From positions 372,001 to 436,000 of the forward strand of contig NZ_JACJQN010000001.1 of the NCBI RefSeq assembly GCF_014696675.1: DNA of 64,000 bases. The letters run 5' to 3'. Below, piece by piece: positions 305-61,700 of the stretch; the first letter of the stretch is position 1; each line of letters begins with the position of its first letter. A program made the position numbers and the translations under genes. Below the pieces are notes generated by a model. That model was not told where the DNA came from. It saw nothing but the letters and a program-made list of their open reading frames with translations, and searched no databases. This DNA comes from Phormidium tenue FACHB-1052. GTDB taxonomy: Bacteria; Cyanobacteriota; Cyanobacteriia; Phormidesmidales; Phormidesmidaceae.

Positions 305-523
305 ATGTTTTTAGACGAGCTTACTCCCTTTGTGCAAGAGCTGACCGCTTACCCTGTGGCGTTTTTGGGTGGGCTAGCCTCGGGTCTGCTGCGGCTCAGT
401 CTATCGGATGACCCCGTCAAAAGCTGGCTACAGAACCAGGGGATCACACCTCCAAACGAAAACGGTAGTGGATGGGGAAGCAGCGATCGCAACGGCGGCC
501 CCCAAAGCATTTCAATTGATTAG
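305..523 (+). CDS. Small conserved cyanobacterial protein with one hydrophobic segment
   Basis: 72 codons, ATG at 305. Residues 1-35 contain a hydrophobic stretch (VAFLGGLASGLLRLSL) followed by a charged DDPVKSWL motif; the C-terminal third is Gly/Ser/Asn-rich and probably disordered. Short proteins with this N-terminal pattern are familiar as hypothetical proteins of cyanobacteria, but no function is known to me. It lies 177 bp downstream of tatC on the same strand and could share its transcript. A single membrane-associated helix is plausible. The length and typical codon use support a real gene. Confidence 0.55.
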   Translation: MFLDELTPFVQELTAYPVAFLGGLASGLLRLSLSDDPVKSWLQNQGITPPNENGSGWGSSDRNGGPQSISID

Positions 524-587
524 TTAGATGCACGCTGAATTAGCGCTGGGCTCGTCTCGTGGCTGGAACCGGGTGCAGCGCTTGTCG

Positions 588-1310: not shown

Positions 1311-1762
1311 GGTTTTAGTCCTGTCGTGTGCTCATAAACCGTGAAACCAATCCAGCGGAGAGCAGGGGCAGAAACCCCAAAGCTCATACCGTTTAAGCAG
1401 GAACTGTTTATAGAGTCCCACCTTGGCTGATGGGGTCTAGACGAACCTGTGGCAGTTATCGAGCTGGCTAGGTCTGGACGGCGAAGGCCCTTTGGTAATT
1501 CAAATAGGAGCTTCGCTGGCGTTGATTCTGTAATCCTGCCTGATGACGCTATAGTCGCATCTCCCCCCTGGGGTCTAAACCGGAAAAAAACGGAGGTTAA
1601 ACCCGCCTGCTAGCGGCTTAATCCCCGTTTGGCGCTATAACCTACGGGAATGTACGGAAAACCTACATGTAGTTTCTTGTGCTTAGATGATGACTCTGTA
1701 ACCACCTGAGTATTTACCGGCATTCAGCAGCTATTGCCACAGAAGCGCAGTTGGAGCACTGT
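1311..1762. other. Intergenic region between TPR gene and helicase gene
   Basis: 452 bp without a convincing gene. It should hold the promoter of the minus-strand TPR gene and the 3' end of the helicase transcript. I see no tRNA-like T-loop, no strong hairpin with a T-run and no ORF with codon use like its neighbours. Confidence 0.4.
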
Positions 1763-4117
1763 CTACTCAGCCCGCTGCAACGCCGAGATTTTAGGATCCA
1801 CAATCTTGCGGCCCTGGCCAGGAAAGTTGATCGCCAGGCAAATTTTGTTGCCCGCCCCAAATATGTGGGTTACTTCTCCGGCCCCGTAGGCCTTATGCAC
1901 CACCACATCCCCTACCGTCCAGTCTGACTCGTGGGCACCGCTGCCCGGTTTAGCGGCGGCCTCACTGCGGTTGCGGGCTTCGCGGATGGGAGTACTCCAC
2001 TTTTGGGGCAGGCCCATGGTGCTGTTGCCGGTGACCAGATCGAGGGGTAGTTCGCTTAAAAACAGCGAGGGGCTGGCAGGTTCGCGACTGCCGTAGAGGC
2101 GACGAGCACGGGCGTGGGAGATGAACAGACGCTCCTTGGCGCGGGTGATGCCTACATAGCAGAGGCGGCGCTCTTCTTCGGTGGCGGCGGGGTCTTCAAG
2201 GGAGCGATGGTTGGGGAACAGGCCCTGCTCTAAACCGACGAGAAACACCACGGGAAACTCTAGCCCCTTGGAGGAGTGCAGGGTCATCAGCGAGACGGCG
2301 TTTTTACCTTCTTTGTTGTCATCCATATCAGAGGCCAGGGAGGCATTAGACAAAAAGCCTAATAGCGATGGGTCGTCTACGTTTTCTTCTTCAAATTGCA
2401 GTGCGGCGTTGTAAAGCTCCTGCACGTTGCCAAAGCGATCGTCGGCGTCGTCGGTGCCTTCGGCCTTGAGGGCTGCCAAATAGCCACTGTCTTCAAGTAC
2501 CCCCTGGATAATTTCAGACCCCTTTCGGTTATCTATATCTTGGTGATACTTTTTGATGATGTCGGCGAATTCGAGCACACCTTTTGCCGATCGCCCCGCC
2601 AAGGTCTTCACCGAAGTATCATCGGCCAAAATCTCCCACAGAGGAATGCCGCCTAGGGTCTGAGTGGCCTGCTCTAGCTTGTCGATGGTGCCCTTGCCGA
2701 CGCCGCGCCGGGGCACATTGATCACCCGCTTGAGGCTGACAGTGTCGGAGGGGTTGGCGATCGCCCGCAAATAGGCCAGCACATCTTTGATCTCGCGGCG
2801 ATCGTAGAATCTCAAGCCCCCCACCACCTGGTAGGGAATGCTGTAACGGGTTAGCACCTCCTCAAAGGCGCGCGACTGGGCGTTCGTGCGGTAGAGAATG
2901 GCAAAGGCACCCCAATTTAGCTCCGGGTGCTGGGTTTCGAGGTGGCGAATCTGGCTGATCACAAAATCGGCCTCTGCGGTTTCATCCTCGGCCCGGTAGA
3001 CGTAGATGCTTTCGCCTTCGCCCCGGGTGGCCCGCAGCACCTTGTCGATGCGCTCGGTGTTGTTTTCGATCAGGTGGTTAGCGACTTCGAGAATGTTCGA
3101 GGTGGAGCGGTAGTTTTCCTCCAGTTTCACCATGGTGCGGGTGTCGTCGTCCGCCAGCCCGTCGCCAAAGTCATCCTGAAAGTTCATCAGAATGGTGAAG
3201 TCCGCCGCCCTAAAAGAATAAATACTTTGATCTGCATCACCTACCACAAACACCGAACGGTGGTTCCAATCTTTGTAGGTAGCAATCGATTCTCCATTGG
3301 TGGCCAGCAGGCGAATTAGATCGTACTGGGTGCGGTTCGTATCCTGGTATTCATCGACTAGAATGTGGCGAAAACGCTTGTGCCAGTAGGCCAGCACCTG
3401 CTCGTTTTGCTGAAACAAGTGCACGGGCATCAAAATCAAATCGTCAAAATCGAGGGCGTTGTTTTCTGCCAACGCCTTTTGGTAATGGCGATAGACATCG
3501 GCGATTACCCGACCTCGGTAGTTGGGCTGCTCTTTTTCGAGTTCGTCGGGGGTGAAGTTTTGGTTTTTGGCGTTGCTGATGGCAAAGCGCACGGATCGCG
3601 GGTTGAACTTTTTGTCGTCCAGATTCAGGGTTTGGGTGACGATGGTTTTAACCAAGCCCTGGGCGTCTGATTCGTCAAAAATCGAGAAACTCTTCGTCCA
3701 GCGGTACCCGGCGGGGTGCTGATACTTTTCGATATCGAACCGCAGAATGCGGGCGCACAGGGCATGGAACGTGCCAATCCACAGGTGCTTGGTGACGGTT
3801 TTATAGACCTGGGATCTGAGCTTGGTCTGCTCATACTGCGGCAGGCTAGAGAGCGATTTACCGTGGCGAGCCTGGGCATCCTGCTCGGCAAACAGTACCT
3901 CAATGCGCTCCTTCATCTCCTTGGCGGCTTTGTTAGTAAAGGTCACCGCGAGGATGTTGTCGGGGTCGGTTTTGTGGGTGAGCACTAGGTTGGCGATGCG
4001 GTAGGTCAACGCCCGGGTTTTGCCCGAACCCGCCCCGGCCACCACCAGCAGCGGGCCGCAGTAGTGCTCGACAGACTGGCGTTGGGCGGGGTTGAGCAGG
4101 GCGAGAAAATCAGTCAT
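1763..4117 (-). CDS. pcrA: ATP-dependent DNA helicase, PcrA/UvrD family (SF1A)
   Basis: 784 residues, the usual size for PcrA/UvrD. Such 3'-to-5' helicases act in nucleotide excision repair, plasmid replication and removal of RecA or stalled RNA polymerase. Motifs in order: Q-motif region (LNPAQRQSV), Walker A GAGSGKT at residues 28-34, motif Ia (AVTFTNKAAKEM), Walker B/DExx as VDEYQD near residue 257, motif III GDADQSIYSFRAAD, motif IV ENYRS, then VSLMTLHSSKGLEF and the final VGITRAKERL. The last ~50 residues form a small beta-rich tail (GDVVVHKAYGAGEV), the RNA-polymerase/Tudor-like domain at the C-terminus of PcrA. All catalytic motifs are intact. The ATG at 4117 leaves only a short lead before the Q-motif, as expected. 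Confidence 0.95.
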   Translation of the reverse strand: MTDFLALLNPAQRQSVEHYCGPLLVVAGAGSGKTRALTYRIANLVLTHKTDPDNILAVTFTNKAAKEMKERIEVLFAEQDAQARHGKSLSSLPQYEQTKLRSQVYKTVTKHLWIGTFHALCARILRFDIEKYQHPAGYRWTKSFSIFDESDAQGLVKTIVTQTLNLDDKKFNPRSVRFAISNAKNQNFTPDELEKEQPNYRGRVIADVYRHYQKALAENNALDFDDLILMPVHLFQQNEQVLAYWHKRFRHILVDEYQDTNRTQYDLIRLLATNGESIATYKDWNHRSVFVVGDADQSIYSFRAADFTILMNFQDDFGDGLADDDTRTMVKLEENYRSTSNILEVANHLIENNTERIDKVLRATRGEGESIYVYRAEDETAEADFVISQIRHLETQHPELNWGAFAILYRTNAQSRAFEEVLTRYSIPYQVVGGLRFYDRREIKDVLAYLRAIANPSDTVSLKRVINVPRRGVGKGTIDKLEQATQTLGGIPLWEILADDTSVKTLAGRSAKGVLEFADIIKKYHQDIDNRKGSEIIQGVLEDSGYLAALKAEGTDDADDRFGNVQELYNAALQFEEENVDDPSLLGFLSNASLASDMDDNKEGKNAVSLMTLHSSKGLEFPVVFLVGLEQGLFPNHRSLEDPAATEEERRLCYVGITRAKERLFISHARARRLYGSREPASPSLFLSELPLDLVTGNSTMGLPQKWSTPIREARNRSEAAAKPGSGAHESDWTVGDVVVHKAYGAGEVTHIFGAGNKICLAINFPGQGRKIVDPKISALQRAE

Positions 4118-4194
4118 CAGTAGCCGAGGGGTTTTGCCTATTTAGTATGACACTGGTTCAGCGTGTCACCGGCAGCAATGCAACAATGCCCGCC

Positions 4195-4866
4195 TCAGCT
4201 CGAAGCGCTCGAGGCGGCGGCAGCCGTCACCTGGCGCAGCATCAGCACCTTCCAGTAGGGAATGGGGGCCAGCAGCACGGTGCCGGTGCCCTCAAAGATA
4301 TTGACCAAAAACTCCCCAGAGGTCATCGATCCCAGCACTGATTTGGTAGCTTTTTCGACCCGGTAGGTGAGGGGGCCGCTGCGGGCGATCGCAAAGTTAC
4401 CGTCCACCACCAGTTTTTCTCGCCGTAGCTCAATGGTTTCCACCGGCCCTTGGGCCACCATCACCACCTTGCCCACGCCCTTGACCTTGGTCTGGTAAAG
4501 CCCTTCGCCACCCACTAGGCCCGTGATCAGCTTATTGCGCTCTACCGACACCTCAACGCTGCCGTCGCTGGCCAAATAAGCTCCCCGGTCTAACGTCCAC
4601 TCGCTGCCCGCCAGGTCAAGAATGTGAAAGCCAGAGAGAGTAGGCTCTAGGTACAGCTCTCCAGTGCCCGTGTAGGTAGGGCGAAAGATGTTTTCTCCGG
4701 TGGCCAATGACTTGAGAAAGCCACCCGCCGAGGGCGTCTTAGACTGCATGGTGATGTCGCCACGCATATAGTGCAATGCCCCTGACTCCGTGCGCACCGT
4801 CTCATTGTTTAAGGTCACTTTGACCAGGCGCGACTCTTCTCGCTCAATAATTTCGAAGTTAGCCAT
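4195..4866 (-). CDS. AIM24-family protein
   Basis: I start at the ATG at 4866, the 16th codon of a longer open frame. It is preceded by AAAGG at a five-base spacing, and family members begin directly with a sequence like MANFEII. The 223-residue product is almost all beta-strand and glycine turns (GEGLYQTKVKGVGKVVMVAQ), the pattern of the AIM24 family, which has a TRAP-like double beta-sandwich fold. Bacterial members are of unknown function; the yeast namesake affects mitochondrial inner-membrane organisation. The C-terminus ends in an Ala/Ser tail. It is in the same direction as, and 78 bp upstream of, the helicase gene, and could share its transcript. Confidence 0.75.
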   Translation of the reverse strand: MANFEIIEREESRLVKVTLNNETVRTESGALHYMRGDITMQSKTPSAGGFLKSLATGENIFRPTYTGTGELYLEPTLSGFHILDLAGSEWTLDRGAYLASDGSVEVSVERNKLITGLVGGEGLYQTKVKGVGKVVMVAQGPVETIELRREKLVVDGNFAIARSGPLTYRVEKATKSVLGSMTSGEFLVNIFEGTGTVLLAPIPYWKVLMLRQVTAAAASSASS

Positions 4867-5201
4867 AGAGACCTTTAAAACAACACCAAAACAGACGAGG
4901 CCATCAGCCATTCAACCCAGCCTGGAGGCAGCAGCCACCGACTCTAGCCATCTTAGCTTTGCCATCGATCGGCGGGCGATCGCCCCACAGCTGCATCGCT
5001 GATCGGCATTTTCTCCAACAGCCTCACGGGTACAGAGCCTCACCGTTTTAGCAGCTGCGGGGGTCACACTATCGTCACAGGGCCGTCATCTCGCTGTCAT
5101 GATTGCCCCCTAGGGTGTCAACCCATGGGCACCCAACGCGGTGCCTGGTGCAAATCTCCCCAGCGAGGTTTGCGCTTGACGATATGCGAGGATCATCGCT
5201 C
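4867..5201. other. Divergent intergenic region before DUF4168 gene
   Basis: 335 bp between the divergent AIM24 and DUF4168 genes. No coding potential is apparent. It carries the four regularly spaced GTCA repeats annotated separately at 5063-5099 and must contain both promoters. Confidence 0.5.
5063..5099 (+). promoter_or_regulatory. Four direct GTCA repeats at 11-bp spacing (Pho-box-like operator)
   Basis: GTCA begins at 5063, 5074, 5085 and 5096, exactly 11 bp apart. The heptamers are GGGTCAC, TCGTCAC, CCGTCAT and CTGTCAT. Helically phased 7+4 repeats are how OmpR/PhoB-family response regulators bind, and CTGTCAT equals the E. coli Pho-box half-site. A TAGGGT at 5111-5116 could be a -10 element. 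The presumed target is the DUF4168 gene starting at 5202. Which cyanobacterial regulator would bind is unknown. Confidence 0.45.
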
Positions 5202-5690
5202 ATGAAACCTTCCACACTGTTCAAAGGCCTGTTGGCCGCCACCCTGTTGCTGGGTGTTCCGGCCGCCGCCGTAGCCCAGGAGCAAGAGGCCCCAGCCCCA
5301 GCCCCAGCCCAAGCAGCCCCAGCAGAGGTGTCTGAAACCCAAATCGATCAGTTTGTTGATGCCTATGAGGCCATTCAAACCATTCAGCAGGCAGTGCAGG
5401 CCGACCTAGTTGCCGCTGTAGAGGCCCAGGGGCTAACGGTGGATGACTACAATGCGATCGCAGCATCGCAGCAGTCTCCCGAAGCTGCCGCCGAAGTTCC
5501 GCCGGAGCAAGCCGAGCAGTTTGCGGCGGCGGCTGAACAGGTTGCGACCCTGCGCGAAGGCGCTCGAACTGAAATGCAGGCCGCCATTGAGGCTGAATCG
5601 CTGAGCATTGAAGAGTTTGAGCTGATTATGGCCCAGGCTCAGCAAGACCCCACCCTGCAACAGGCGATTGTTGAGCGGCTGGCTGAGTAG
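5202..5690 (+). CDS. Secreted DUF4168-domain protein
   Basis: The frame is open from 5103, but I start at the ATG at 5202. It is preceded by GAGGA at 5188-5192 and opens a clear signal peptide: KPSTLFKG, a hydrophobic core, then AAAVAQ with cleavage near residue 25. The mature protein (about 137 residues) starts with a Pro/Ala-rich linker and continues with a helical domain (ETQIDQFVDAYEAIQTIQQ ... TMQAAIEAESLSIEEFELIM). This matches DUF4168, a cyanobacterial and alphaproteobacterial periplasmic family of unknown function. It is followed by a strong hairpin at 5762-5799. The upstream GTCA repeat array suggests control by a two-component regulator. Confidence 0.75.
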   Translation: MKPSTLFKGLLAATLLLGVPAAAVAQEQEAPAPAPAQAAPAEVSETQIDQFVDAYEAIQTIQQAVQADLVAAVEAQGLTVDDYNAIAASQQSPEAAAEVPPEQAEQFAAAAEQVATLREGARTEMQAAIEAESLSIEEFELIMAQAQQDPTLQQAIVERLAE

Positions 5691-5761
5691 TCAGTAGGGC
5701 AACCCAAAGCCTCAATTGATCAAGGCTTGAGCTTCTGAAGGCTGAGAGCCTAAATGCAGAA

Positions 5762-5799
5762 CAAAACCCTCCTTCGACTCATGTTGAAGGAGGGTTTTG
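5762..5799. terminator. Bidirectional rho-independent terminator
   Basis: Perfect 14-bp inverted repeat: caaaaccctccttc at 5762-5775 and its complement at 5786-5799, with a 10-base loop. The A-run on one side and T-run on the other let it serve both converging transcripts, the DUF4168 gene (plus) and the SH3 gene (minus). Confidence 0.85.
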
Positions 5800-5831
5800 A
5801 ACGTTTTGAACGGCTAAGCGCCTGCGGCCAT

Positions 5832-6464
5832 CTAAGGACAGGTGATGGGCGTTATGTTGTTGCCGATGCCGTTGGTGCCAGTCCGGGCAATCCAGCCGGT
5901 ACTGCCGTTATAGATAGTCACCTGCATCCAGCGACGACCGTCAGTGGCGGTTTGCTGGGTGGGTGGGTTGGCACTGGCAATTACGGTGTCGCCGATGTTG
6001 TAGCCAGCGACGGCGCTAGAGCCGACTGTGGGGCCAGATCTAACCACCATTTCACGATCGGCCCTAAAGCAGGCTTTGGGCGGAGGAGTCGGAGTGCTAC
6101 CGCAAGCCGTCAAAACGCTGGCATTAATCCAGCCTACGGGCTGTGTCGAAGACAGGGCACCGCTTCTCAGAAAAACCTGTGCTCGCCCTGGGGAGGTTGC
6201 CCCGGTTAGGCTGACCTGGGTGCCAGCCTGTAGGGTGCCGATGCGGGTTGCGATCGGCCCTAGCGTGGAGTTGTCAAAAACTTCAGTGGCTCGGTTGAGC
6301 TGACGACAGCCTCGAATCAGAACTGGATTTTCGGTTAGAGTCCGGGTTTCCTGAGCGAGGGCCGGGGCTATAGACAGCGACCCCGCAGAGAGTAGCGCGA
6401 TTCCCACAGGGATCGCTTTGCGAATCGCTCCGAAAGAAAATTTGCGCAACACGTTTGATGGCAT
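5832..6464 (-). CDS. Secreted protein with two SH3-like domains
   Basis: 210 residues. Residues 1-38 form a signal peptide (basic start, hydrophobic core, cleavage after APALA). Two bacterial SH3-like segments follow: residues ~45-115 (VFDNSTLGPIATRIGTLQAG ... GWINASVL) and ~135-205 (VVRSGPTVGSSAVAGYNIGD ... STGWIART), joined by a PTPPP linker. Four cysteines in the mature part could form disulfides. Such domains usually bind the cell wall or extracellular ligands; no catalytic domain is present. The gene converges on the DUF4168 gene and shares its terminator. Confidence 0.7.
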   Translation of the reverse strand: MPSNVLRKFSFGAIRKAIPVGIALLSAGSLSIAPALAQETRTLTENPVLIRGCRQLNRATEVFDNSTLGPIATRIGTLQAGTQVSLTGATSPGRAQVFLRSGALSSTQPVGWINASVLTACGSTPTPPPKACFRADREMVVRSGPTVGSSAVAGYNIGDTVIASANPPTQQTATDGRRWMQVTIYNGSTGWIARTGTNGIGNNITPITCP

Positions 6465-6778
6465 GGACAGTCCTGATCCCTTTTATATAGCTTTTTAAGG
6501 TCGAATTTCAGGGTTCACCCGGCCATCCTACCACCCACAAAATTGATCCTCGCGACGGCTTTCACGAAGCTTATCGAAGGGGTTCCAGACACGTTCTATA
6601 GCCCTGGCTTGAGGAAATCCTCGACAGACTCAACCGACTGACAAATTATTGGGTTGGCAGTTGTGGGGTAAGCCCCAGGGCGATCGCGCTGGTGACCTGG
6701 GCCAGTCCTCAACCAGAGCGCGGTAACGCCGACAGACGTGGGAGAATAAACACCCTGTGCGCAAAGAGTAACAACGGT
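6465..6778. other. Intergenic region, divergent promoters
   Basis: 314 bp between the SH3 protein (minus) and the hypothetical at 6779 (plus). A TTTTATATAGC stretch at about 6481-6491 is a candidate AT-rich promoter element for the minus-strand gene. Nothing else was recognised. Confidence 0.35.
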
Positions 6779-7825
6779 ATGACGGCGGCAATGCCCTATT
6801 CTTCTGAGGTAATTGAGTCAGCGATGCAGGCCGGGGAGCTGACCTTTGCCCTTCCCGACCCCACCGACGAAAAAATCTCTGACTATGAGTTTAACCAGCA
6901 GATGGAGGCGGCCTGGCAGGTGTGCGATCGCTTCGACCTGCAAACCGATATCTGGCGGGGCAGAATCTTGCGGACGGTGCGCGATCGCGAAAAGAAGGGC
7001 GGCGACGGGCGCGGCACCGGCTTTCTCAACTGGCTCAAGGATCGTGAAATCACCAAAAGCCACGCCTACAACCTGATCGAACTCGCCGAGAGCGCCGACC
7101 AATTGCTCGATGCGGGCATGCTCACCCCCAAAGAAGTCAACCAGTTCAGCAAACGCGCTTTCGTTGAAACTGCCAAATCGGCCCCCGAAGTGCAGCAGCT
7201 CGTCAGCGACTCCGCCCGCAAAGGCGACCACATTACCCGCCGCGAAGTGCGCCAGGTCGCCAACGAATGGGCCGCCATGACCTCAGATCTCATCCCTGAA
7301 TCTCTGCGAGAAAAAGCCGCCAACAACACCATCCCCACCCGCTACATCGCGCCGTTGGTCAAGGAGATGGAAAAGCTGCCCCCCGTCCACCAAAGCACCC
7401 TCAAAACCGAAGTTGAGCTGAACCCCGATCTCGATACCCTAAAACAAGTCACCGCCGAAGCCCGCTACCTCTCCAAGTATCTGGCCTCCGCCAACCAGGT
7501 GCAACTGCTTGAAGCCAGCGGCATTGACCTAGAACTCGCCCTCGAAGAAGCCCTGCGGGTAGGCTGCCTCAATTCTGCCGCCGACATGGTGGCCCAGGCC
7601 GCCCAGATCGAGCAGACCGCCGTCAAACTCTTCACCGCCTGGAAGCGCATCAACCAACTGGCAGAACGGGTGTTTGTGGACAGCGGCGAAAGCACCCCCA
7701 ACCTGCGCGCTCTACTCACCGCCCTCGGCCCCGTCACCAGCGAAACCATCCAGGTGCGCCTGGGCGAAATCGACAGCGTCACCGCCCAAACCATCCGCTG
7801 GCGACTCATGGTAGAAGAGGACTAA
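6779..7825 (+). CDS. Conserved cyanobacterial protein of unknown function, mostly helical
   Basis: The open frame reaches back to 6692, but I choose the ATG at 6779 (348 residues); the ATG at 6791 is also possible. The product is soluble, acidic and alpha-helical. Residues ~75-120 contain GTGFLNWLKDREITKSHAYN, then LIELAESADQLL, reminiscent of DUF3102-like or ParB-associated helix-turn-helix segments. A later stretch, SARKGDHITRREVRQVANEW, could also be DNA-binding. This resemblance is weak and I do not assign a function. No signal peptide or membrane segment is seen. It is followed by the convergent HicBA pair. Confidence 0.6.
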   Translation: MTAAMPYSSEVIESAMQAGELTFALPDPTDEKISDYEFNQQMEAAWQVCDRFDLQTDIWRGRILRTVRDREKKGGDGRGTGFLNWLKDREITKSHAYNLIELAESADQLLDAGMLTPKEVNQFSKRAFVETAKSAPEVQQLVSDSARKGDHITRREVRQVANEWAAMTSDLIPESLREKAANNTIPTRYIAPLVKEMEKLPPVHQSTLKTEVELNPDLDTLKQVTAEARYLSKYLASANQVQLLEASGIDLELALEEALRVGCLNSAADMVAQAAQIEQTAVKLFTAWKRINQLAERVFVDSGESTPNLRALLTALGPVTSETIQVRLGEIDSVTAQTIRWRLMVEED

Positions 7826-48596: not shown

Positions 48597-49288
48597 AGCG
48601 ATCAGTCCTAGGATGACAAACTGGCGATCGCCAGCCTAAAGTCCATTTTGGCATCGCCTCTCTGACCGTAGATTAATTTAGGGTGAGCAAGGTACAGCTA
48701 CACCGACCCTAAACTAGGTATTGACTCCGAACTTATGTAACGGTTCTGAACCCACCCCAGGGAAAATACGGGACTTTGTTCTAGTCACCCAAGCAGAGGT
48801 TAAAGACTTAATTTCAATCAAAAGCCAGGCTTGCCCAGCCGCCTCCGTAAGAATCGGCAGACTTCGCCAAAAGTTTACAGAGCCATAGAAATTATGTAAA
48901 CAAGGCCAAACCGATTGGGGTGCAAGGCCTGGCGATTCACAAATTTTGAGAGGGAGCCCCCAAATCAGCCCTCTCAGGCCTTAGCAAGCAGGAGCTGAGT
49001 TGGAAGACTTTAGAACAGAATCGCCAGCTCTTATACTAATGAGGCGAGTCCATAGGTATCCGTAGTTACGCCATTGTGGTCGCCTCCGTCGGCCCTTAGT
49101 CTTAATATCACGAGCACACGATCCTGTGATGCACTGCTTTGTCGTTAACAGAGAGTAGCTGAGCGAGGGCAGCGAGGTTTTCTCTACCGCCTATTCCCCC
49201 AACTATCTTTGCTACCGTTTAAGGCCCCACCGTCAGGCAGCATAGTTCTCGGTTTACCCGATTGGATTCACCACTTCCTGAGATCGCC
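48597..49288. other. Large divergent intergenic region between msrP and sigF
   Basis: 692 bp without a gene. It contains an 8-bp inverted repeat, tttagggt at 48677-48684 with 48706-48713, a gtttaca at 48873-48879 with its inverse tgtaaac at 48895-48901, and one GTA-N8-TAC at 49056-49069. The length suggests complex promoters or an unannotated RNA. Confidence 0.4.
49056..49069 (+). promoter_or_regulatory. NtcA-type palindrome GTA-N8-TAC
   Basis: GTA at 49056-49058 and TAC at 49067-49069, with TAGTCT 27 bp downstream as a possible -10. It is 220 bp upstream of the sigF ATG. The pattern is expected many times by chance in 64 kb, so this is only a candidate. Confidence 0.2.
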
Positions 49289-50068
49289 ATGGTCGCTACT
49301 TCCCGGTTTCAAGCTAAAGGCAGCACCCTAGAACTGCTGCGGCTCTATCAGAGCAATCCCGATCTCAACTTGCGCAATCAGCTGGTGCAGCTCAACATTG
49401 GATTAGTCCGGCGCGAGGCCTACCGCTGGCTGCAACAATCTAACGAAACCTTTGACGACCTCATGCAGGTGGGTAGCTTGGGGTTGATTCGCGCCATCGA
49501 GCGCTTTGATATGGGCAAGGGCTATGCCTTTAGTTCCTTTGCGATTCCCTACATTCGCGGCGAGATTCAGCACTACCTGCGCGACAAAAGCACCTCTATG
49601 CGCATCCCACGGCGATGGCAGGCGCTGCAAAGCCAGTCGGCCCGGGTGATTCGCCAGCTACAAGCCGATCTGGGCCGGCTGCCCAACGATGCCGAAATTT
49701 CTGCGGCCCTTGATATCTCTACAGCCGAATGGCAAGAGGTCAAGCTGGCCACTCGCAACCGATCGCTGCTGAGCCTTGACGCCCCAGTGCAAGATGAAGA
49801 ATCAGGCTGTCTAGGCGACCTGCTGCCCGACCTGAAATATAAAAGCTTTCAGCTGGCTCAGGAAGATCAACTTCGCCTCCAACAGGCTCTGCACCAACTT
49901 GAGCATCGCACCCGTGAAGTGCTGGAGTTTGTCTTTCTCTACGACCTCACCCAAAAAGAAACCGCCGAACGCATGGGGATTAGCGCCGTTACCGTATCGC
50001 GCCGAGTGAAGCAAGGGCTAAAGCATCTTCAGGTGCTGATGGTGTCTAACGAAGACGAAACCGCCTAA
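49289..50068 (+). CDS. sigF: Group 3 sigma factor, SigF-like
   Basis: 259 residues from ATG 49289 (the frame opens with TTG at 49262). Sigma region 2 is FDDLMQVGSLGLIRAIERFD followed by AFSSFAIPYIRGEIQHYLRD; region 3 covers SARVIRQLQADLGRLPNDAE; region 4 helix-turn-helix is LTQKETAERMGISAVTVSRR. It belongs to the SigB/F/G group of alternative sigma factors. In Synechocystis SigF controls type IV pilus and surface genes. The next gene encodes a Pro/Gly-rich membrane protein with a possible pilus link, which fits. Confidence 0.85.
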   Translation: MVATSRFQAKGSTLELLRLYQSNPDLNLRNQLVQLNIGLVRREAYRWLQQSNETFDDLMQVGSLGLIRAIERFDMGKGYAFSSFAIPYIRGEIQHYLRDKSTSMRIPRRWQALQSQSARVIRQLQADLGRLPNDAEISAALDISTAEWQEVKLATRNRSLLSLDAPVQDEESGCLGDLLPDLKYKSFQLAQEDQLRLQQALHQLEHRTREVLEFVFLYDLTQKETAERMGISAVTVSRRVKQGLKHLQVLMVSNEDETA

Positions 50069-53294: not shown

Positions 53295-54350
53295 CTAGTT
53301 GATGTCTGAGAGGCGAATGCGCGGGTCAGCAAAGCTCAGCGCTAGATCCGCCAGCAGGTTGCCCACAATCAGCAGCACCGCCCCCGTAATCAAGCTGGCC
53401 ATCACCAGATACAAGTCCTGAGCTTGCACCGCTTCAAGGGTCAGTTTCCCTAAACCAGGCCAGTTGAAATAGGTTTCGGTAATGAATGAGCCGCCCAGCA
53501 AACCCGCAAACTCAAAGCCCAGAAGCGTGATCAGCGGGTTCACCGCATTGCGCAGGGCATGGACGTAAACCACGCGATTTTCTGACAAGCCTTTGGCGCG
53601 GGCGGTTTGAATGTAGTTTTGGCGCAGCACGTCGAGCAGTTGCCCTCGGGTCACCCGCTGGAGCCCGGCAAAGCTGGTGATGCTCAGGGCCAGGGTCGGC
53701 AAGATCAGGTGCCAGCCCACATCCACGAGCTTGCCAAACCAGTTGAGGTCGTCGTGGATAATGCTGGTGCGTCCGCCGATGGGGAACAGCGGGGCCACGC
53801 TCTGAGCAAAAAACAGCAGCAGCAGGCCGGTGACAATGCTGGGCATGCCCTGCCCCAGATAGCTCAGCACCCGCAACACGCGATCGGTAGGGCGGTTTTG
53901 GTTGACAGCACTCACAATGCCCATAGGAATGGCGATTAGCCAGGTAACCAAAAAGGCTGCAAAGGCGAGCAACAGGGTATTAGGCACCCGCTCCCAGAGC
54001 AGGTCGATCACTGGGCGCTGGTAGGCAAAGCTGAGGCCAAAGTTGCCGTGGAAGATCACCTGGTAGAGCCAGTTGAGGTACTGCCGCCAGGCGGGCTGGT
54101 CGAGGCCAAACTGGGCTTCTAGCTGTGCCAGGGTCTCGGGCGAAAACTGCGGGCTTTGCCGATACTGATCGAGAAAATTGCCCGGCGCGAGCTGAATTAC
54201 AAAGAAGCTGAGGGCCGAGGCCAGCAGCAGCGTCAGGGCGGCCTGCAAGATACGCTTCAGCACATAGAGGACGGTTTCGCTGTTGGCCAAGACCACCAGG
54301 CGTTCCCAGGGGCTGACTGAAGGGCGGCGAGGAGTAGAAGACTGAGCCAT
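53295..54350 (-). CDS. ABC transporter permease, DppB/OppB type
   Basis: 351 residues from ATG 54350 (an ATG at 54362 is four codons earlier). Six membrane helices, with a characteristic N-terminal VLKRILQAALTLLLASALSF then VIQLAPGNFLDQYR, and the EAA loop ARAKGLSENRVVYVHALRNA that couples to the ATPase. It is the first of the two permeases of peptide/nickel (or oligosaccharide) importers; the partner permease, ATPases and binding protein are not in the window. It stands alone, so it may be an orphan subunit. Confidence 0.9.
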   Translation of the reverse strand: MAQSSTPRRPSVSPWERLVVLANSETVLYVLKRILQAALTLLLASALSFFVIQLAPGNFLDQYRQSPQFSPETLAQLEAQFGLDQPAWRQYLNWLYQVIFHGNFGLSFAYQRPVIDLLWERVPNTLLLAFAAFLVTWLIAIPMGIVSAVNQNRPTDRVLRVLSYLGQGMPSIVTGLLLLFFAQSVAPLFPIGGRTSIIHDDLNWFGKLVDVGWHLILPTLALSITSFAGLQRVTRGQLLDVLRQNYIQTARAKGLSENRVVYVHALRNAVNPLITLLGFEFAGLLGGSFITETYFNWPGLGKLTLEAVQAQDLYLVMASLITGAVLLIVGNLLADLALSFADPRIRLSDIN

Positions 54351-54664
54351 TCCCAAATGCACAGAGATTAAAGGGCTATCTGTGGTGATTCTAAACCAAT
54401 CGCGCCCAGCCTATTGATATTGATGCTGATGGCGGTGGGGGCGATCGCACCTAACAAAACCGATACTTACCCGACTACTTTGCAACGTTAGATTGCTGAA
54501 TTGAACCCACTAGGGTAGCCATCATCTTTGATGTTTATATTCCCCCCAAAAGGCAACGCTCAACACCACGCCTTTGCCTGACTCAGACTGAACTTTGTCA
54601 TACCCCAAAGTCATTTGACGGTTCCCTAATAAACCCCGCATCACATTTTCTCCAGGATCTACCT
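54351..54664. other. Intergenic region, divergent promoters
   Basis: 314 bp between the ABC permease and PTS genes. No gene seen. The stretch 54487-54506 (ATTGCTGAATTGAA) faintly resembles the MITE end. An AGGAT before the PTS start is its likely ribosome site. Confidence 0.35.
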
Positions 54665-57223
54665 ATGACAGCCCTTGAAGCCCCCCCCACCAAAACCAAC
54701 CGTCTGGTTTTAACGGCCCCGCTGTCGGGGCTAGTAGTTCCGATAGAAACCGTGCCTGACCCAGTATTTGCGCAAAAAATGGTGGGCGATGGTGTGTCTA
54801 TCGACCCAACCAGTCAGGTGCTGCTAGCCCCCTGCGATGGGGATATTGTGCAAATCCACAGCGCTAGCCATGCAGTCACCGTGAAGACCACCGAGGGCAT
54901 TGAAATTTTGATGCACATTGGTCTGGATACCGTAGCTTTAAAGGGTGAGGGGTTTACGGCCAGGGTAAAGGTGGGCGATCGCGTTAAATCTGGCGACACC
55001 TTAATTGAGTTTGACGCCGACTATGTGGCGCTGCACGCCCGCAGCTTGCTGACTCAGATTGTGGTGACCAACAGCGATCGCGTCGCCCAGTTCAAACCCA
55101 CCAGCGGTATGGTCAACGCCGCCCGCGACACTATCTTGGAACTGGTGCTGGTTGGAGAGACTACCGAAAGTGTTCAGGAATCGGGGTCAACGGTGACCTC
55201 TGAGGCTATTGTCATTCCCAATCCGGTGGGGCTGCACGCTCGACCAGCGGCGGTGCTGGCCCAATTAGCGAAAAAATATCAGTCGGCCATCCGCCTGCAT
55301 CGGGGCAGCGACAGCGCCAACGTTCGCAGCGTGGTGGCGATCATGGGGCTGGAAATTGGCCGAGGCGAGACGGTGACGCTGGCGGCCACTGGAGCCGATG
55401 CCGAGGCAGCGATCGCAGAACTCTCCACCGCCCTGCACGATGGCCTGGGCGAAGAGGGGGCCGTTCCTGTGACTGCCGCCGCCAGCATTGCCCAAGCCGA
55501 GATCTCGGCCCCGGCTCCTCGGCCCAAGAGCGACGACCCCAACATGATCTTGGGCGTAGCCGCTTCACCAGGGGTGGCCGTGGGCAACACCTACCGCCAG
55601 CGACGGCAGGAGATTCGCGTCGAGGAAACCGCCGATAGCCCCCAGGTCGAGCGCCGCAAGCTCGACAGAGCGATCGACCAAGCTGCCCTTGAGATCGAGA
55701 GCCTGCGGGCCAAGGTGCACGGCCAGGGCGACCCCAGCAAAGCCGCCATCTTTGCGGCCCACCAGGAGCTACTGGCAGACCCAGAGCTGATGGATATGGC
55801 CAGTAGTGCGATCGACCAGGGCAAGAGCGCCGCCTTTGCCTGGCAGCAGACCTACACCGCCCAGGCCGATACCCTGGCTCGGCTCAAGAGCGAGCTGCTG
55901 GCCCAGCGGGCGAATGATCTGCGGGATGTGGGCGATCGCGTGCTCCGCATTCTCACAGGCGTCAAGGCAGAAGCCCTGGTTTTGCCCGCCGAGAGCATTT
56001 TGCTGGCCGAAGACCTCACTCCCTCGGATATGGCCAACCTTGACCCAGCCCGAGTGGTGGGCTTTGCTACGGTGGCGGGGGGAGCTACCTCTCACGTAGC
56101 GATCTTGGCTAGGTCGATGGGCATACCGGCGATCGCGGGCATCGAACCCCGCATTCTAGACTTTGCTGACGGCACCCCGGTGATTCTCGACGGCACCAAG
56201 GGGCGGGTGAGGCTCAACGCCTCCGTAGACGAGCTAGAAGCCACCCAAGACCGTATCACTCGCCAAAAGGCCAGGCAGGCAGAGGATCTGGAGCACGCTT
56301 TCGAACCCGCCATCACCCAGGATGGGCGGCAGATCGAGGTGGTCGCCAACATTGGCAGCCAAAAAGACGCTGAGGCCTCCCTCAAGGTGGGTGGCGAAGG
56401 GGTCGGTCTGCTCAGAACCGAGTTTGTGTTTATGGAGGCCAGCTCGGCCCCCACTGAGGACGAGCAGGAGGTGATTTACTCAAGTATTTTGAGGGTGTTG
56501 GGCGATCGCCCCATGATTATTCGCACCCTGGATGTGGGCGGCGACAAACCCCTGCCCTACCTGCCTATGGCCCACGAGGAGAATCCCTTCCTCGGTGAAC
56601 GGGGCATTCGCCTGGGCTTCGATCGCCCCGAGCTGATGCGCACCCAGTTTCGCGCCATTCTCAGAGCCTCTACCGCTGGCAAAGCGCGGGTCATGTTCCC
56701 CATGATTGCCCGCATGGAGGAGTTAGAGATGGCCAAGGCAGTGATGGAAGAGGAGCGCCAAAAGCTGGGCGTGCCGCCTATCGAAATCGGCATCATGGTC
56801 GAGGTGCCCGCTGCCGCTGTGTCCGCTGAGCGGTTTGCAGAACAGGTGGACTTTTTTTCCATTGGCACTAATGACCTAACCCAATACACCCTGGCGATGG
56901 ATCGCGGCCACCCCAAGCTGGCCCCCTACGTCGATGCCCTCAACCCCAGCGTGCTGCGCATGATTGACCTGACGGTGCGCGGGGCCGACAAGCACGGCAA
57001 ATGGGTCGGTGTCTGCGGCGGTATGGCGGGCGACCCCCAGGCGGTTCCCATTCTGCTGGGATTGGGTGTGAAAGAACTCAGCGTCAGCGTGCCGGTGATT
57101 CCGGCGGTGAAAGCTCAGGTGCGGGGCTTGACCCTAGCTCAGTGCCAAGATTTAGCGCAGCAGGCATTGAATTTAGACTCTGCCGCCCAGGTGCGCGATC
57201 TGGTGCCGCTAGAAGAAGCGTAG
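54665..57223 (+). CDS. PTS IIA-HPr-Enzyme I fusion protein
   Basis: 852 residues carry the whole soluble phosphorelay. Residues 15-140 are a glucose-type IIA domain, with the pair His69 (SASHAVTV) and phosphorylated His84 (ILMHIGLDTV). Residues 180-265 are HPr, with His191 (NPVGLHARPAA) and the regulatory-serine region NVRSVVAIMGL. Residues 295-852 are Enzyme I, with His477 (GGATSHVAILARSMGIPA), the PEP-binding FSIGTNDLTQYTLAMDRGH and a C-terminal CGGMAGDP with the catalytic Cys. It takes phosphate from PEP and passes it to the membrane IIBC of the next gene. Such PTS systems are rare in cyanobacteria. Confidence 0.95.
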   Translation: MTALEAPPTKTNRLVLTAPLSGLVVPIETVPDPVFAQKMVGDGVSIDPTSQVLLAPCDGDIVQIHSASHAVTVKTTEGIEILMHIGLDTVALKGEGFTARVKVGDRVKSGDTLIEFDADYVALHARSLLTQIVVTNSDRVAQFKPTSGMVNAARDTILELVLVGETTESVQESGSTVTSEAIVIPNPVGLHARPAAVLAQLAKKYQSAIRLHRGSDSANVRSVVAIMGLEIGRGETVTLAATGADAEAAIAELSTALHDGLGEEGAVPVTAAASIAQAEISAPAPRPKSDDPNMILGVAASPGVAVGNTYRQRRQEIRVEETADSPQVERRKLDRAIDQAALEIESLRAKVHGQGDPSKAAIFAAHQELLADPELMDMASSAIDQGKSAAFAWQQTYTAQADTLARLKSELLAQRANDLRDVGDRVLRILTGVKAEALVLPAESILLAEDLTPSDMANLDPARVVGFATVAGGATSHVAILARSMGIPAIAGIEPRILDFADGTPVILDGTKGRVRLNASVDELEATQDRITRQKARQAEDLEHAFEPAITQDGRQIEVVANIGSQKDAEASLKVGGEGVGLLRTEFVFMEASSAPTEDEQEVIYSSILRVLGDRPMIIRTLDVGGDKPLPYLPMAHEENPFLGERGIRLGFDRPELMRTQFRAILRASTAGKARVMFPMIARMEELEMAKAVMEEERQKLGVPPIEIGIMVEVPAAAVSAERFAEQVDFFSIGTNDLTQYTLAMDRGHPKLAPYVDALNPSVLRMIDLTVRGADKHGKWVGVCGGMAGDPQAVPILLGLGVKELSVSVPVIPAVKAQVRGLTLAQCQDLAQQALNLDSAAQVRDLVPLEEA

Positions 57224-57605
57224 GGTGCATTCGGCGGTATGAGGTTGCGATCGGTGTCATTCCACTTTGCCCCGCCAATGCGCCATCCTCGAAAACCCAA
57301 AGCCCCGTAGGGTGGGCACGGCCCACCATGAGCTACGCAGTATTCAAATCGATAGCTTGCAGGAAAGCGTGGCGCACGATTGACGGCAAAAGCCAAGCCT
57401 GCCGCTGGGGCCATTTCGCTGGCCCCAGCCCCCCTTCTCAAAGGGCATTCCGCCGCCCTTCACCCCACGGCAAGGATTAGCTGATCATCGGTTTAAACCT
57501 CTGTTCTGCTAACGAATCGATGAGAGACATAAACTCCGCTGTGTAGGCCCCTTTGATTCACTCCATCGCCCATCCACCCCATCACCCCCTACCCCTTGAC
57601 CCTCT
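57224..57605 (+). other. Intercistronic region with hairpins between the PTS genes
   Basis: 382 bp with no credible gene. It holds a 7-bp hairpin at 57311-57327 (ggtgggc, loop acg), part of the CGTAGGGTGGGCACGGCCCACC motif repeated in many cyanobacterial genomes, and a 10-bp hairpin at 57404-57429 (gctggggcca, 6-base loop). A C/T-rich tract precedes the next ATG. Confidence 0.5.
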
Positions 57606-59459
57606 ATGAAAATTAAAGAAACCTGGAACCACACCTTCGGGCTGCTGCAAAAAATGGGGAAGTCGCTGATGCTTCCCGTGTCAGTGCTGCCGGTGGCGGG
57701 CCTGCTGCTGGGCCTGGGCAGCGCTCGGCTGATCGAGCTTCAGCAGATTGAGCAGGGCGTGCTCAGCGATCCGAAGTTTTGGTGGCTGCCGGAGTGGCTG
57801 GCCGCCATTATGAAAACGTCTGGGGACGCTATTTTTGCCAGTCTGCCGCTGATTTTTGCGATCGCCGTGGCGATCGGCTACACCGGCAACGATGGGGTCT
57901 CGGCCCTGGCTGCCACCGTCGGCTTCGTAGTATTTCTCGCCACCTTGGGCACCGTCGCCCTCGGCATGGGCTTAGAAACCAAGACAGTGCTGGGCATCCC
58001 CACGCTGGATACGGGGGTGTTTGGCGGCCTGATTATGGGCTGCATCGCGGCCTATATGTTCAACAAATTCTTTCGCATCAGCCTGCCCCGCTACCTGGGC
58101 TTTTTTGCCGGTAAGCGGTTTGTGCCAATTATCACGGCCTTTGCCGCCATTCTGACGGGCTTAGTGATGAGCGTGATTTGGCCGCCCATTGGGGCTGGCA
58201 TCAACAGCTTTGCCCAGGCGGCAGCGGAGGGCGGCAACGTGCCGCTGACCGTGGCCCTCTATGGCTTTATTGAGCGCTTGCTCATTCCCTTTGGGCTGCA
58301 CCACGTCTGGAACGTGCCGTTCTTCTTTGAGATTGGTTCATTCCAAGACCCAATTACCGGGGAGACTGTGCGGGGTGATATTGCGCGTTTCTTTGCGGGC
58401 GACCCCACCGCAGGGATTTTGGGTGGAGCCTACTGGTTCAAGATGTTTGGGCTGCCAGCAGCGGCGATCGCCATTTGGCACAGCGCCAAACCCAAAAACC
58501 GCAGGCAGGTCGGCGGTCTGATGATTTCTGCCGCTCTGACCTCGTTTTTGACCGGCATCACTGAACCAATTGAGTTCTCGTTCTTGTTCGTTGCCCCTCA
58601 GCTGTTCGCCATTCACGCCGTGCTGGCCGGGTTTGCCGACTGGCTATTTGTCACCCTGGGCGGACGTATGGGCTTTACCTTCTCCCACGGACTGATCGAC
58701 TTTGTGCTGTTCAACAGCTTGGGGACGCGGGTTTGGCTGATTCCGGCCCTGGCTCCGGTGTTTGTAGCGCTGTATTACTTCATCTTCCGCTTTGCCATTC
58801 GCCAGTTCAACCTCATGACTCCAGGCCGCGAAGAGGATGTGGATGCAGATGAATCCACCGCCGCCATCACAGGCGACAAAGCTGAAATGGCTAAGGCCCT
58901 GGTGCTGGCCTTTGGCGGTCGCAGCAACATCAAAAACCTAGATGCCTGTATTACCCGTCTGCGGATTAGCGTAGACGATATGGCAAAGGTCAACGTCCCC
59001 CGCCTAAAGGCGCTGGGAGCCTCTGGGGTGTTACAGATGGGGCAAAATGCCCAGGCTATTTTTGGCCCCCAGTCTGACAACCTCAAGACCGATATGGCCG
59101 ACTACCTCAAAACCGCTGGCCCTGAAGCCGATGTAGTAGAGGTACCTGCCACAGGCTTTGTGAATGAGACCACCCCCGATCCGATCGCAATTCCCTCTGA
59201 CCCCCAAGTGGCCCAAAAAGCCGAGGCTGCGATCGCGGCTCTAGGCGGTGCCAACAACATTCGCACCGTTGACTCCGTCGCCCTGACCCGCCTGCGAGTA
59301 GAAGTCACCGACCCCGCCGCCATTGATGAAACCGCGCTCCAGGCTGCTGGGGTTCAAGGCATCATGCGGCTACAGAATGACGTGCTGCACCTGGTGACTG
59401 GGCTCAACGCCGATCAGTACGCTGATGAAATCGCCCAGCGACTCGCAGCCAAGGTATAG
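57606..59459 (+). CDS. PTS glucose/GlcNAc-type IIC-IIB transporter with extra IIB domain
   Basis: 617 residues. IIC: residues 1-400, about ten membrane segments, the substrate motif [10 protein letters not shown] and [15 protein letters not shown]: residues ~425-500, with phosphorylation Cys448 in [12 protein letters not shown] second IIB-like domain at 535-615 repeats the fold ([18 protein letters not shown]) but has no cysteine at the active position. The sugar specificity within the glucose/N-acetylglucosamine group is not certain from sequence. It receives phosphate from the upstream IIA-HPr-EI fusion; together the pair is a complete transporter. Confidence 0.93.
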
Positions 59460-60242: not shown

Positions 60243-61700
60243 CTAACCAATTTCGCGGGCGGCATTGTAAATCGCTTCGTTGGCCTGCACCGACTTGTGC
60301 AAATCTACCACCGGGCGCGGATAGTCAACCCCGAGGATAACCCCAAAGCGCTTTTGCTCCACCGGCTGAAGTTTCCATAGCTCATGCACCTTAGCAGCAG
60401 GAACATCTGTTAGTTCTGGCAACCAGTGCTTCACGTAGAGGCCGTCGGGGTCATAATCCTTCGACTGCTTGGGAATGTTGAAATAGCGGAAGCCCCGCGC
60501 GTCGTTGCCAACTCCAGCGGTGTAATTCCAGTTGCCGTAGTTACTACATGGGTCGTGGTCGACCAGCAGCGACTCAAACCACTCAGCCCCCATGCGCCAG
60601 TCAATACCCAAGTTTTTGGTGAGAAAGCTGGCCACATTCTGCCGCCCTCGGTTCGACATAAACCCCGAGTGGGACAGCTCGCGCATGTTGGCATCCACCA
60701 ACGGAAAGCCGGTTTCGCCGTTGCGCCAGGCATCGAAGCGTTGCCAGTCCTGTTTCCAGTCGATCAACAGCCCCCGCAGACCAGAGGGGTAAAACACTTT
60801 GTTGCCGTGCTTGGCACAGATAAAGCGAAAGTAGTCGCGCCACAGCAGCTCAAAAACCAGCCAGTAGGTGGAGTCGTTGCGGATGCGCTCAGCTTCGTAA
60901 TCTCGCACGGTCTCGTATACCCGCCGGGGCGAGAGGCAACCCATCGCTAACCAGGCCGACAGCTTTGAGGAATAGTCGGCCCCCACCATGCCGTTGCGGG
61001 TCTGCTTGTAGGTCTTGAGGCAGTCAGCCTCCCACACATAGTGGTTGAGGCGAGCCAGGCCAGCCGTTTCGCCCCCCTCAAAGGTGAGTACAGCACGGCT
61101 GTCGAGGTTTGGGGCTTCCAAGCCGAAGTCTGTCAGGGCAGGCATGGTGCCAGGATTGACCTGAGGCAGGGGCAGAATTTTTTGGGGCGTGGGTAGAGCC
61201 ACATCCACCGTGCTGTGCTGCTCCACTTTTTTACGAAACTGGGTAAACACCTCTGGCAAGCGGCTAATAGCAAAGGGCAGGTTGTCGGGATGGTAGAGAG
61301 TGGCCCCCCAGTACACCTCCGTTTTGCAGCCCATAGTCGCTAGTTTGGTTTCCACCGCCTGCTCCACTCGCAGTTCTTCAGCGGTGACTTCCTCGTGCCA
61401 GTAGACCGCCTCAACGCTGTGGGCTTTGACCAGCTCTGGGATGATGTCTTCGGGCTGACCCAGTCGCACGACGAGGTCGCTGCCCAGGGCTTGGAGCGAT
61501 CGCCGCAAATCCGCCACACTCTCTAGCAAAAACTGCGCCCGATAGGCTCCCGTTTTAGGAAAACCAAAGGCGGTTTGGCCAAACTGACGCGGGTCAAAAC
61601 AGTAGAGGGGAATAATCGGCTGACCGGCCCGCAGCGCCTCGTCAAGGGGCTGGTGGTCGTGAAGGCGGAGGTCGTTGCGAAACCAGACGAGAGTAGTCAT
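60243..61700 (-). CDS. Cryptochrome DASH / photolyase
   Basis: 485 residues. N-terminal photolyase domain TTLVWFRNDLRLHDHQPLDE; FAD-binding helical domain with YWLVFELLWRDYFRFICAKH, then ANMRELSHSGFMSNRGRQNV, then NYGNWNYTAGVGNDARGFRY. These are DASH-type signatures. Cry-DASH proteins repair pyrimidine dimers in single-stranded DNA with blue light and may also be light sensors. The start ATG at 61700 directly follows a long pyrimidine-rich leader. Confidence 0.93.
   Translation of the reverse strand: MTTLVWFRNDLRLHDHQPLDEALRAGQPIIPLYCFDPRQFGQTAFGFPKTGAYRAQFLLESVADLRRSLQALGSDLVVRLGQPEDIIPELVKAHSVEAVYWHEEVTAEELRVEQAVETKLATMGCKTEVYWGATLYHPDNLPFAISRLPEVFTQFRKKVEQHSTVDVALPTPQKILPLPQVNPGTMPALTDFGLEAPNLDSRAVLTFEGGETAGLARLNHYVWEADCLKTYKQTRNGMVGADYSSKLSAWLAMGCLSPRRVYETVRDYEAERIRNDSTYWLVFELLWRDYFRFICAKHGNKVFYPSGLRGLLIDWKQDWQRFDAWRNGETGFPLVDANMRELSHSGFMSNRGRQNVASFLTKNLGIDWRMGAEWFESLLVDHDPCSNYGNWNYTAGVGNDARGFRYFNIPKQSKDYDPDGLYVKHWLPELTDVPAAKVHELWKLQPVEQKRFGVILGVDYPRPVVDLHKSVQANEAIYNAAREIG

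Follow-up and report, generated by a model that had tools for sequence, protein, structure and literature searches.

A predicted glucose phosphotransferase system in two fusion proteins, rare in cyanobacteria and old in its genus

A stretch of 64,000 nucleotides from Phormidium tenue FACHB-1052 (contig NZ_JACJQN010000001.1, positions 372,001 to 436,000, forward strand; hereafter the window), a Nodosilinea-like cyanobacterium, encodes two fusion proteins that very probably form a complete, self-sufficient glucose phosphotransferase system (PTS). The first is a multiphosphoryl transfer protein (MTP), in which IIA(Glc), HPr and Enzyme I (EI) are joined, and the second is a permease composed of IIC, IIB and a second IIB-fold domain, B' (Table 1). 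The system is rare in cyanobacteria, old in its genus and often lost. All of its parts and the two-gene arrangement already exist in Pseudomonadota. The surprise is modest: a rare PTS that goes back to the ancestor of a cyanobacterial genus and is accompanied by a fructose PTS.

An earlier reading of the same DNA (the original prediction) had proposed a complete PTS in a cyanobacterium, encoded by two fusion genes in the order IIA-HPr-EI and IIC-IIB. The coordinates and the Pfam domains agree with this, and because the E-values are 9e-22 or better, chance is excluded for the domain assignments. The domains and phospho-acceptor residues are all found. Two features go beyond the original prediction, namely a second IIB domain at the end of the permease, in which alanine replaces the catalytic cysteine, and the complete fructose PTS elsewhere in the genome. 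In the following, L numbers denote loci of relatives and G numbers genomes, G000 being the host genome.

Domain composition and sugar class

The MTP passes the Enzyme I equivalog-domain cut-off of TIGR01417 with 553.4 against 341.7 bits, and its Enzyme I part consists of three Pfam domains that span residues 297–821. The IIA domain is 43% identical to E. coli Crr over 150 columns. His84 aligns to the histidine of the VHFG motif in Crr, which we take to be the phospho-acceptor, and His69 to the histidine of NHAF, presumably its catalytic partner. His191 and His477 are situated in canonical HPr and EI motifs. All 20 complete cyanobacterial glucose MTPs keep His84, His191 and His477. The protein thus unites IIA(Glc), HPr and EI in a single chain that has every active histidine, as in the class of MTPs with an N-terminal IIA(Glc). 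It does not fall into the fructose class (FruA/FruB), since its IIA belongs to PTS_EIIA_1 and the IIC of its partner is of the glucose type.

Pfam PTS_EIIB matches the permease in two stretches. Cys448 of the first lies in the motif LDACITRLR and is conserved throughout the main clade, in all 35 cyanobacterial permeases. With the domains matched and His84, His191, His477 and Cys448 conserved, the four phosphorylation sites that had been proposed are real, His84 being the acceptor of the two IIA histidines that had been considered.

Both glucose models accept the permease, TIGR02002 with 673.2 bits (cut-off 591.8) and PRK11089 with 656.7 (cut-off 647), whereas the N-acetylglucosamine (GlcNAc) model TIGR01998, which describes NagE, gives 495.8 bits, under its cut-off of 553.2. 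The identity to E. coli PtsG is 56% over 498 columns. The cryo-EM study of E. coli IICB-Glc (PMC11393339) names E202, R203, H211, H212, N215, K257, T297, E298 and F337 as contacts, and adds G295 and S338, which contact glucose in simulation. All 11 residues are identical in the window permease (E223, R224, H232, H233, N236, K279, T319, E320, F359, G317 and S360), with F359 and S360 just beyond the Pfam IIC range. They are also identical in 35/35 glucose-type cyanobacterial rows of the alignment and in 5/5 rows from Burkholderia and Azospirillum; among 17 other PtsG-type rows, one deviates at position 257 and one at 338 (E. coli numbering). In all 17 GlcNAc-type rows that bear B', position 202 is N and position 257 is M, and from the sequences sampled we infer that this pair marks the GlcNAc class. 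The window permease has E and K at these positions. The sugar is probably glucose and not an amino sugar. The original prediction had offered both; the model scores and contacts bear out glucose, while the missed TIGR01998 cut-off and the missing N/M pair speak against amino-sugar use.

Among ten copies of the genus compared pairwise, purifying selection is evident, with a median dN/dS of 0.055 for IIC (45/45 pairs usable) and 0.023 for the catalytic IIB (44/45).

Judging from what is known of PTS families, His477 of Enzyme I would most likely take phosphate from phosphoenolpyruvate (PEP) and pass it, inside one polypeptide, to His191 of HPr and on to His84 of IIA, from where it would reach Cys448 of the first IIB. 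IIC would carry glucose across the membrane by an elevator movement, IIB would phosphorylate it, and the glucose-6-phosphate formed inside the cell would enter the oxidative pentose phosphate pathway or glycogen metabolism, a route that may serve mixotrophic growth. As the Cys-less B' cannot hold phosphate on a cysteine, its likeliest role would be to offer the large IIA-HPr-EI protein an additional site for docking or regulation. E. coli PtsG, acting with PtsI, HPr and Crr, has the same 11 glucose contacts and the same phosphate route; there, however, EI, HPr and IIA are separate proteins and B' is absent, whereas in the window the three are fused and B' is present.

Table 1. Positions in the window of the PTS genes, their domains and the flanking genes
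Feature	Position	Strand	Basis or remark
MTP, IIA(Glc)-HPr-Enzyme I, 852 aa	54665..57223	+	ORF, Pfam, TIGR01417
IIA(Glc) domain, residues 16-139	54710..55081	+	Pfam PTS_EIIA_1; His84 codon 54914-54916
HPr domain, residues 180-257	55202..55435	+	Pfam PTS-HPr; His191 in GLHARPA
Enzyme I domain, residues 297-847	55553..57205	+	His477 in GGATSHVAI
Spacer between MTP and permease genes, 382 bases	57224..57605	+	Shorter in some relatives
Predicted glucose permease, IIC-IIB-IIB', 617 aa	57606..59459	+	ORF, Pfam, TIGR02002
IIC membrane domain, residues 18-342	57657..58631	+	Pfam PTS_EIIC; PtsG contact residues
Catalytic IIB domain, residues 428-502	58887..59111	+	Phospho-Cys448 at 58947-58949
Second IIB-fold domain B', residues 536-617	59211..59456	+	Ala559 (59280-59282) at Cys position
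ABC transporter permease gene, left neighbour marking the locus in the genus	53295..54362	-	
DNA photolyase gene, flanking the pair on the right in some members of the genus	60243..61700	-	

The second IIB domain

B' is 29% identical to the first IIB of the window permease over 68 columns and keeps the TRLR loop. The catalytic cysteine is replaced by alanine in 24/24 aligned cyanobacterial B' domains, in which 18 columns are invariant. Among 58 B'-bearing rows in all, alanine occupies this position in 56, glycine in L102 and histidine in L165. An AlphaFold2 model of B' made with the 24-row alignment has a mean pLDDT of 86.7 and matches the structures 3bp3, 1o2f and 3bp8 with TM scores of 0.77–0.81 and rmsd values of 1.1–1.3, so that B' has the fold of IIB(Glc). 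Of these structures, 1o2f is a IIA-IIB complex and 3bp8 an Mlc-IIB complex. B' is constrained, although less so than the catalytic parts, since its median dN/dS is 0.128 (41/45 pairs usable), compared with 0.195 for the linker (32/45) and the value given above for the catalytic IIB.

The presence of B' goes together with that of the fused phosphodonor. An intact MTP stands beside 43 of 47 B'-bearing rows and beside none of 9 rows without B'; the remaining four B'-bearing rows are frameshifted copies in metagenome-assembled genomes (MAGs; L038, L061) or cut by a contig end (both rows of L051). Permeases without B' have a IIA fused or nearby, EI alone, or nothing nearby. The count covers the 56 rows in which 2.9 kb or more of upstream sequence was available or an MTP was seen, with the window row added by hand; the enteric controls lie outside it because their flanks are too short. 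Since most rows are closely related and B' status was assigned by group name after alignment, the association describes a pattern and does not amount to a statistical test. A tree was built from 125 IIB and B' domains over 79 columns, with 13 near-duplicate cyanobacterial proteins dropped beforehand; in it, a branch with an SH-aLRT support of 96 separates all 45 B' domains from all 80 catalytic IIB domains. The B' domains thus lie on one side although their carrier permeases form two clades, but the few columns and long branches weaken this split.

We suggest, tentatively, that B' might be a dead IIB that co-evolves with the fused IIA-HPr-EI protein, a docking or regulatory receptor that would hold the phosphodonor of about 850 residues at the permease. 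If so, a docking B' would turn the glucose PTS into a two-protein channelled machine, and the module of B' and MTP would either predate the sugar classes or have moved between them. The association of B' with the MTP is the part worth following. A conserved dead IIB next to a fused phosphodonor raises a testable question of PTS mechanics that reaches past cyanobacteria.

Distribution, locus history and origin

Among 386 cyanobacterial genomes from 140 genera, the permease finds a match in 6 genomes of 4 genera, and one of the six (G309) has only a remnant. Pfam PF02378 finds 22 genomes of this phylum sample at E 0.001 and 7 over cut-off, namely the six permease genomes and G070, which has a fructose-type system. 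A PTS is therefore seldom found in cyanobacteria, as had been stated. At E 0.001 the permease matches 60/347 Pseudomonadota and 19/99 Bacillota genomes, counts that include other sugar classes. Of the 63 genomes of the window's family, 25 have a match, as do 16 of the 26 in its genus; G021 and G041 hold fragments only, and some other family matches are contig-cut or frameshifted. A contig scan gave at least 41 relatives of the permease, at least 30 of them in cyanobacterial records. Among the matches listed, these include Nodosilinea, Leptolyngbya PCC 7375, Planktothrix, Chroococcus FPU101, Aphanothece, Stenomitos and Phormidium. The permease of the culturable Nodosilinea FACHB-131 is 97% identical to that of the window.

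In one passage, a 2008 survey describes the PTS as absent from Cyanobacteria (PMC2405797), and a statement in a 2010 genome paper has most cyanobacterial genomes without it (PMC2900214). Among the matches listed from the open-licence literature, no title or abstract opening pointed to a cyanobacterial glucose PTS, and the text of PMC12661447 contains no PTS terms. In contrast to the statement of 2008, the present results place a predicted glucose PTS in a range of filamentous and some unicellular cyanobacteria, with the history of its locus in one genus.

Within the genus the PTS pair occupies one locus. It is bordered on the left by the ABC-permease gene, both in the window and in 8/8 other genus copies with a left flank (L033, L035, L037, L038, L060 and L217–L219). 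The photolyase gene is the right neighbour in L033, L035, L036, L037 and L217 and, within the limits of their short flanks, in L001–L008 and L034. No photolyase gene occurs in some 7–8 kb of right flank in the more divergent strains L218 and L219, nor in the 1.6 kb of right flank in L038. In 7 of the 10 genus genomes without a match (G022, G023, G024, G029, G036, G037 and G043), the ABC-permease and photolyase genes are 0.4–1.9 kb apart and the PTS is missing, with both edges alignable to the window. A 25-residue MTP match at E 0.002 in G024 was not counted. G027 and G040 have no photolyase gene beside the ABC-permease gene, and the stretch in G028 is too short to judge. Between the same two genes G021 retains a 55-residue fragment, and G041 has two PTS fragments beside the ABC permease, at a contig end. 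A tree of the two neighbour genes interleaves genomes in which the PTS is present, absent or a remnant.

The one shared locus, the seven empty sites and the two fragment copies indicate, at the level of sequence, that the PTS pair was present in the ancestor of the genus and has been lost repeatedly. It was probably also present in the ancestor of the family. Two outcomes had been named as refuting the original prediction, a system ancestral in its lineage and broken copies in related strains; both are found for the genus and probably hold for the family, but not for the phylum. With close relatives that have, miss or keep fragments of the system, the genus lends itself to a natural experiment on how much a phototroph gains from a PTS.

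The phylogeny that had been proposed was run. In a quick tree of 95 rows, from which 11 enteric near-copies and fragmentary or duplicate loci had been dropped beforehand, the 35 glucose-type cyanobacterial permeases form one clade (support 100). A careful tree keeps 65 of these rows, after removal of 30 that were long-branch, near-duplicate or distant, and unites its 24 cyanobacterial permeases with a support of 100/100. The 24 Enzyme I domains of the MTPs likewise form one clade (support 100). The tree of the glucose-type permeases is accounted for by a single entry into cyanobacteria or by ancestry followed by loss. The nearest outsiders are PtsG-type proteins of Pseudomonadota, including those of Burkholderiaceae with B' and an adjacent MTP, but the trees together single out no sister group among them. 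The branch that joins cyanobacteria with Burkholderia and Azospirillum has a support of 93 in the quick tree and 28/0 in the careful tree, and an alternative that holds the Pseudomonadota PtsG rows together has a p-AU of 0.439. We therefore claim no specific proteobacterial donor.

The Burkholderiaceae ptsP-ptsG pairs (Caballeronia grimmiae LDZ21_RS19875/RS19880 and relatives) have the same order and strand as the window, with a IIA-HPr-EI fusion followed by a PtsG-type IIC-IIB that also carries a Cys-less B'. The identity to the window is 52–55% for both proteins, so that nearly half of the residues differ, and the permeases of Burkholderiaceae and Azospirillum form a clade separate from the cyanobacterial ones. 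Among the matches listed, all 7 Burkholderiaceae plasmid records with a window-type permease have the unit of MTP and permease, and all 16 Pseudomonadota loci chosen for B' have a unit of MTP and GlcNAc-type permease. Compactness, which the original prediction had read as a sign of acquisition or retention, does not point to a recent acquisition, as the two-gene unit recurs in these Pseudomonadota and holds one locus in the genus. In Azospirillum a PtsG-type permease is paired with an MTP of the GlcNAc group; the two genes can therefore reassort.

The proteobacterial GlcNAc-type pairs (the 16 Pseudomonadota loci and Gemmatirosa) share the two-protein architecture, an MTP followed by IIC-IIB-B', and NagF and NagE of P. 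aeruginosa are the textbook case. A GlcNAc system of this kind with glucose as a side substrate might also be suspected in the window since nagA lies about 41 kb downstream in the host genome, and since in the filamentous cyanobacterium CCP2 (L051) a GlcNAc-type permease, nagB and nagA occur in a gene run with an MTP end and a glucose-type permease. However, the GlcNAc-type permeases belong to another clade, with N202/M257 and about 37–42% identity to the window permease, which is under the NagE cut-off and has E/K instead. No nag gene is present among the eight neighbour ORFs scanned (49.3–62.7 kb), and nagA is over cut-off in 26/26 genus genomes, PTS present or not, and so says nothing for GlcNAc uptake. 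On model scores, contact residues and the distribution of nagA, an amino-sugar PTS was set aside as improbable. We also regard it as very unlikely that the system is mainly regulatory, with the phosphorylation state of the MTP signaling PEP/pyruvate status and transport being secondary. IIA(Glc) and HPr have regulatory roles in other bacteria, B' is under purifying selection though it lacks the cysteine, an IIB fold can bind partners such as Mlc (3bp8), and a sigma-70-family gene (49262–50068) lies 4.6 kb upstream; yet constraint is strongest on the catalytic IIB and on IIC, the sugar-binding site is preserved, and no regulator gene is directly beside the PTS pair.

A recent acquisition from a proteobacterium by the strain or species would agree with the rarity of PTS permeases in the phylum and with the best full-length matches, B' included, in the plasmid collection, which are permeases of Burkholderiaceae and Azospirillum at 53–55% identity. 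It is nevertheless extremely improbable and is rejected by locus, remnants and trees: related strains have the PTS at the same locus, with remnants and empty sites, which contradicts a recent acquisition for the genus, the glucose-type cyanobacterial copies are one clade, and the GC content of the PTS region, 0.55–0.60, is similar to that of the remaining window. A comparison of RpoB with the permease in 29 hosts finds 13 of 26 splits in common, and 11 rows of the window's family, some placed by identity to family-scan matches, form one split in both trees (RpoB 95, permease 100). A deeper acquisition, before the ancestor of the family, is likely.

Some observations weigh against the reading of an old glucose PTS encoded by one unit. 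The RpoB and permease trees exclude one another: in AU tests the RpoB topology is rejected by the permease alignment (p = 3e-37) and the permease tree by RpoB (p = 0.0009), with well-supported conflicts at L030/L044/L046 and L012. Purely vertical descent is thereby rejected, and inheritance was partly vertical, with some exchange between lineages. As 10 of 26 genus genomes have no match, the PTS is dispensable in many strains. Three Bacillota permeases, whose sugar is not established, carry M257 and either K or Q in place of E202, so the E/K contact pair is not universal among relatives. The 382-base spacer calls for caution over co-transcription of the two genes, and a sigma-70 scan with 0 promoter-like sites against 2.4 expected was uninformative.

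Neighboring genes, related loci and the fructose PTS

The eight neighbor ORFs encode an ABC permease, a DUF6010 protein, a photolyase, a peroxiredoxin, a NuiA-like protein, a fatty-acid-hydroxylase/dehydrogenase fusion, a protein without a match and the sigma-70-family protein; no regulator or sugar gene is directly beside the PTS pair. A palindrome-like motif at 57307–57327, in the spacer between the PTS genes, occurs once in the window and is possibly a scattered repeat element.

Wherever the flank of a cyanobacterial locus is long enough, the MTP and permease genes lie side by side, except for gene remnants and L055 (PMM_0002 MAG). There, nearly 3 kb upstream of the permease (2965–4467) contain no adjoining MTP, and a misassembly or rearrangement is possible. 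In G309, a Planktothrix-like genome, an internally deleted permease remnant (L107, 6405–6786) lies upstream of a PEP-utiliser-like gene that is 72% identical to one downstream of the intact Planktothrix locus L045. The CCP2 gene run (3–7317) contains the end of an MTP, nagB, nagA and two permeases, one GlcNAc-type and one glucose-type, both with B'. A GlcNAc-type PTS thus does occur in cyanobacteria, as a different paralogue, and one phosphodonor may serve two sugars in CCP2. A sugar porter of the SP family is over cut-off in 1 of 26 genus genomes, while 24 of 26 match at E 0.001, mostly weakly; the single case (G022:C1:1407090-1408481) is in a strain without the glucose PTS, where one uptake route may possibly have been replaced by another.

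The second PTS of the host is of the fructose type and lies outside the window (G000:C22:30589-36006; locus L105, 8590–14007). Its genes fruB, fruK and fruA are consecutive on one strand, and fruB encodes an IIA-HPr-EI fusion of 816 aa. FruK scores 335 bits with TIGR03828 (cut-off 292), and FruA scores 430.8 with TIGR01427 (cut-off 157.55), though it is under the PRK10712 equivalog cut-off (665.7 against 793). A fructose permease is present in 24/63 family and 18/26 genus genomes, including 8 of the 10 genus genomes without the glucose PTS. Among viral contigs, none that carries a fructose permease was confirmed.

FruA/FruB systems likewise combine an MTP partner with a duplicated IIB, but their IIA and IIC families differ from those of the window, and the doubled IIB of the host's fructose permease is N-terminal, unlike that of the window permease. 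According to a passage in PMC2405797, duplicated IIB domains accompany FruB proteins, and both IIB domains of E. coli FruA are needed for full activity. FruA is thus a precedent for the pairing of a doubled IIB with a fused phosphodonor. A PTS was noted in the cyanobacterium Nostoc (Trichormus) azollae in one part of PMC2900214, and a passage of PMC10095879 describes the PTS protein detected in the Azolla cyanobiont as a fructose-specific IIC by homology. By this description, the N. azollae PTS resembles the second PTS of the host and not the glucose PTS. The host's fructose permease (L105, 8590–10419) begins with a degenerate IIB, in which SAAGEAHT, without a cysteine, stands in place of the CPTGIAHT of the second copy; the fructose permease of G070 (L106) has a cysteine in both IIB copies.

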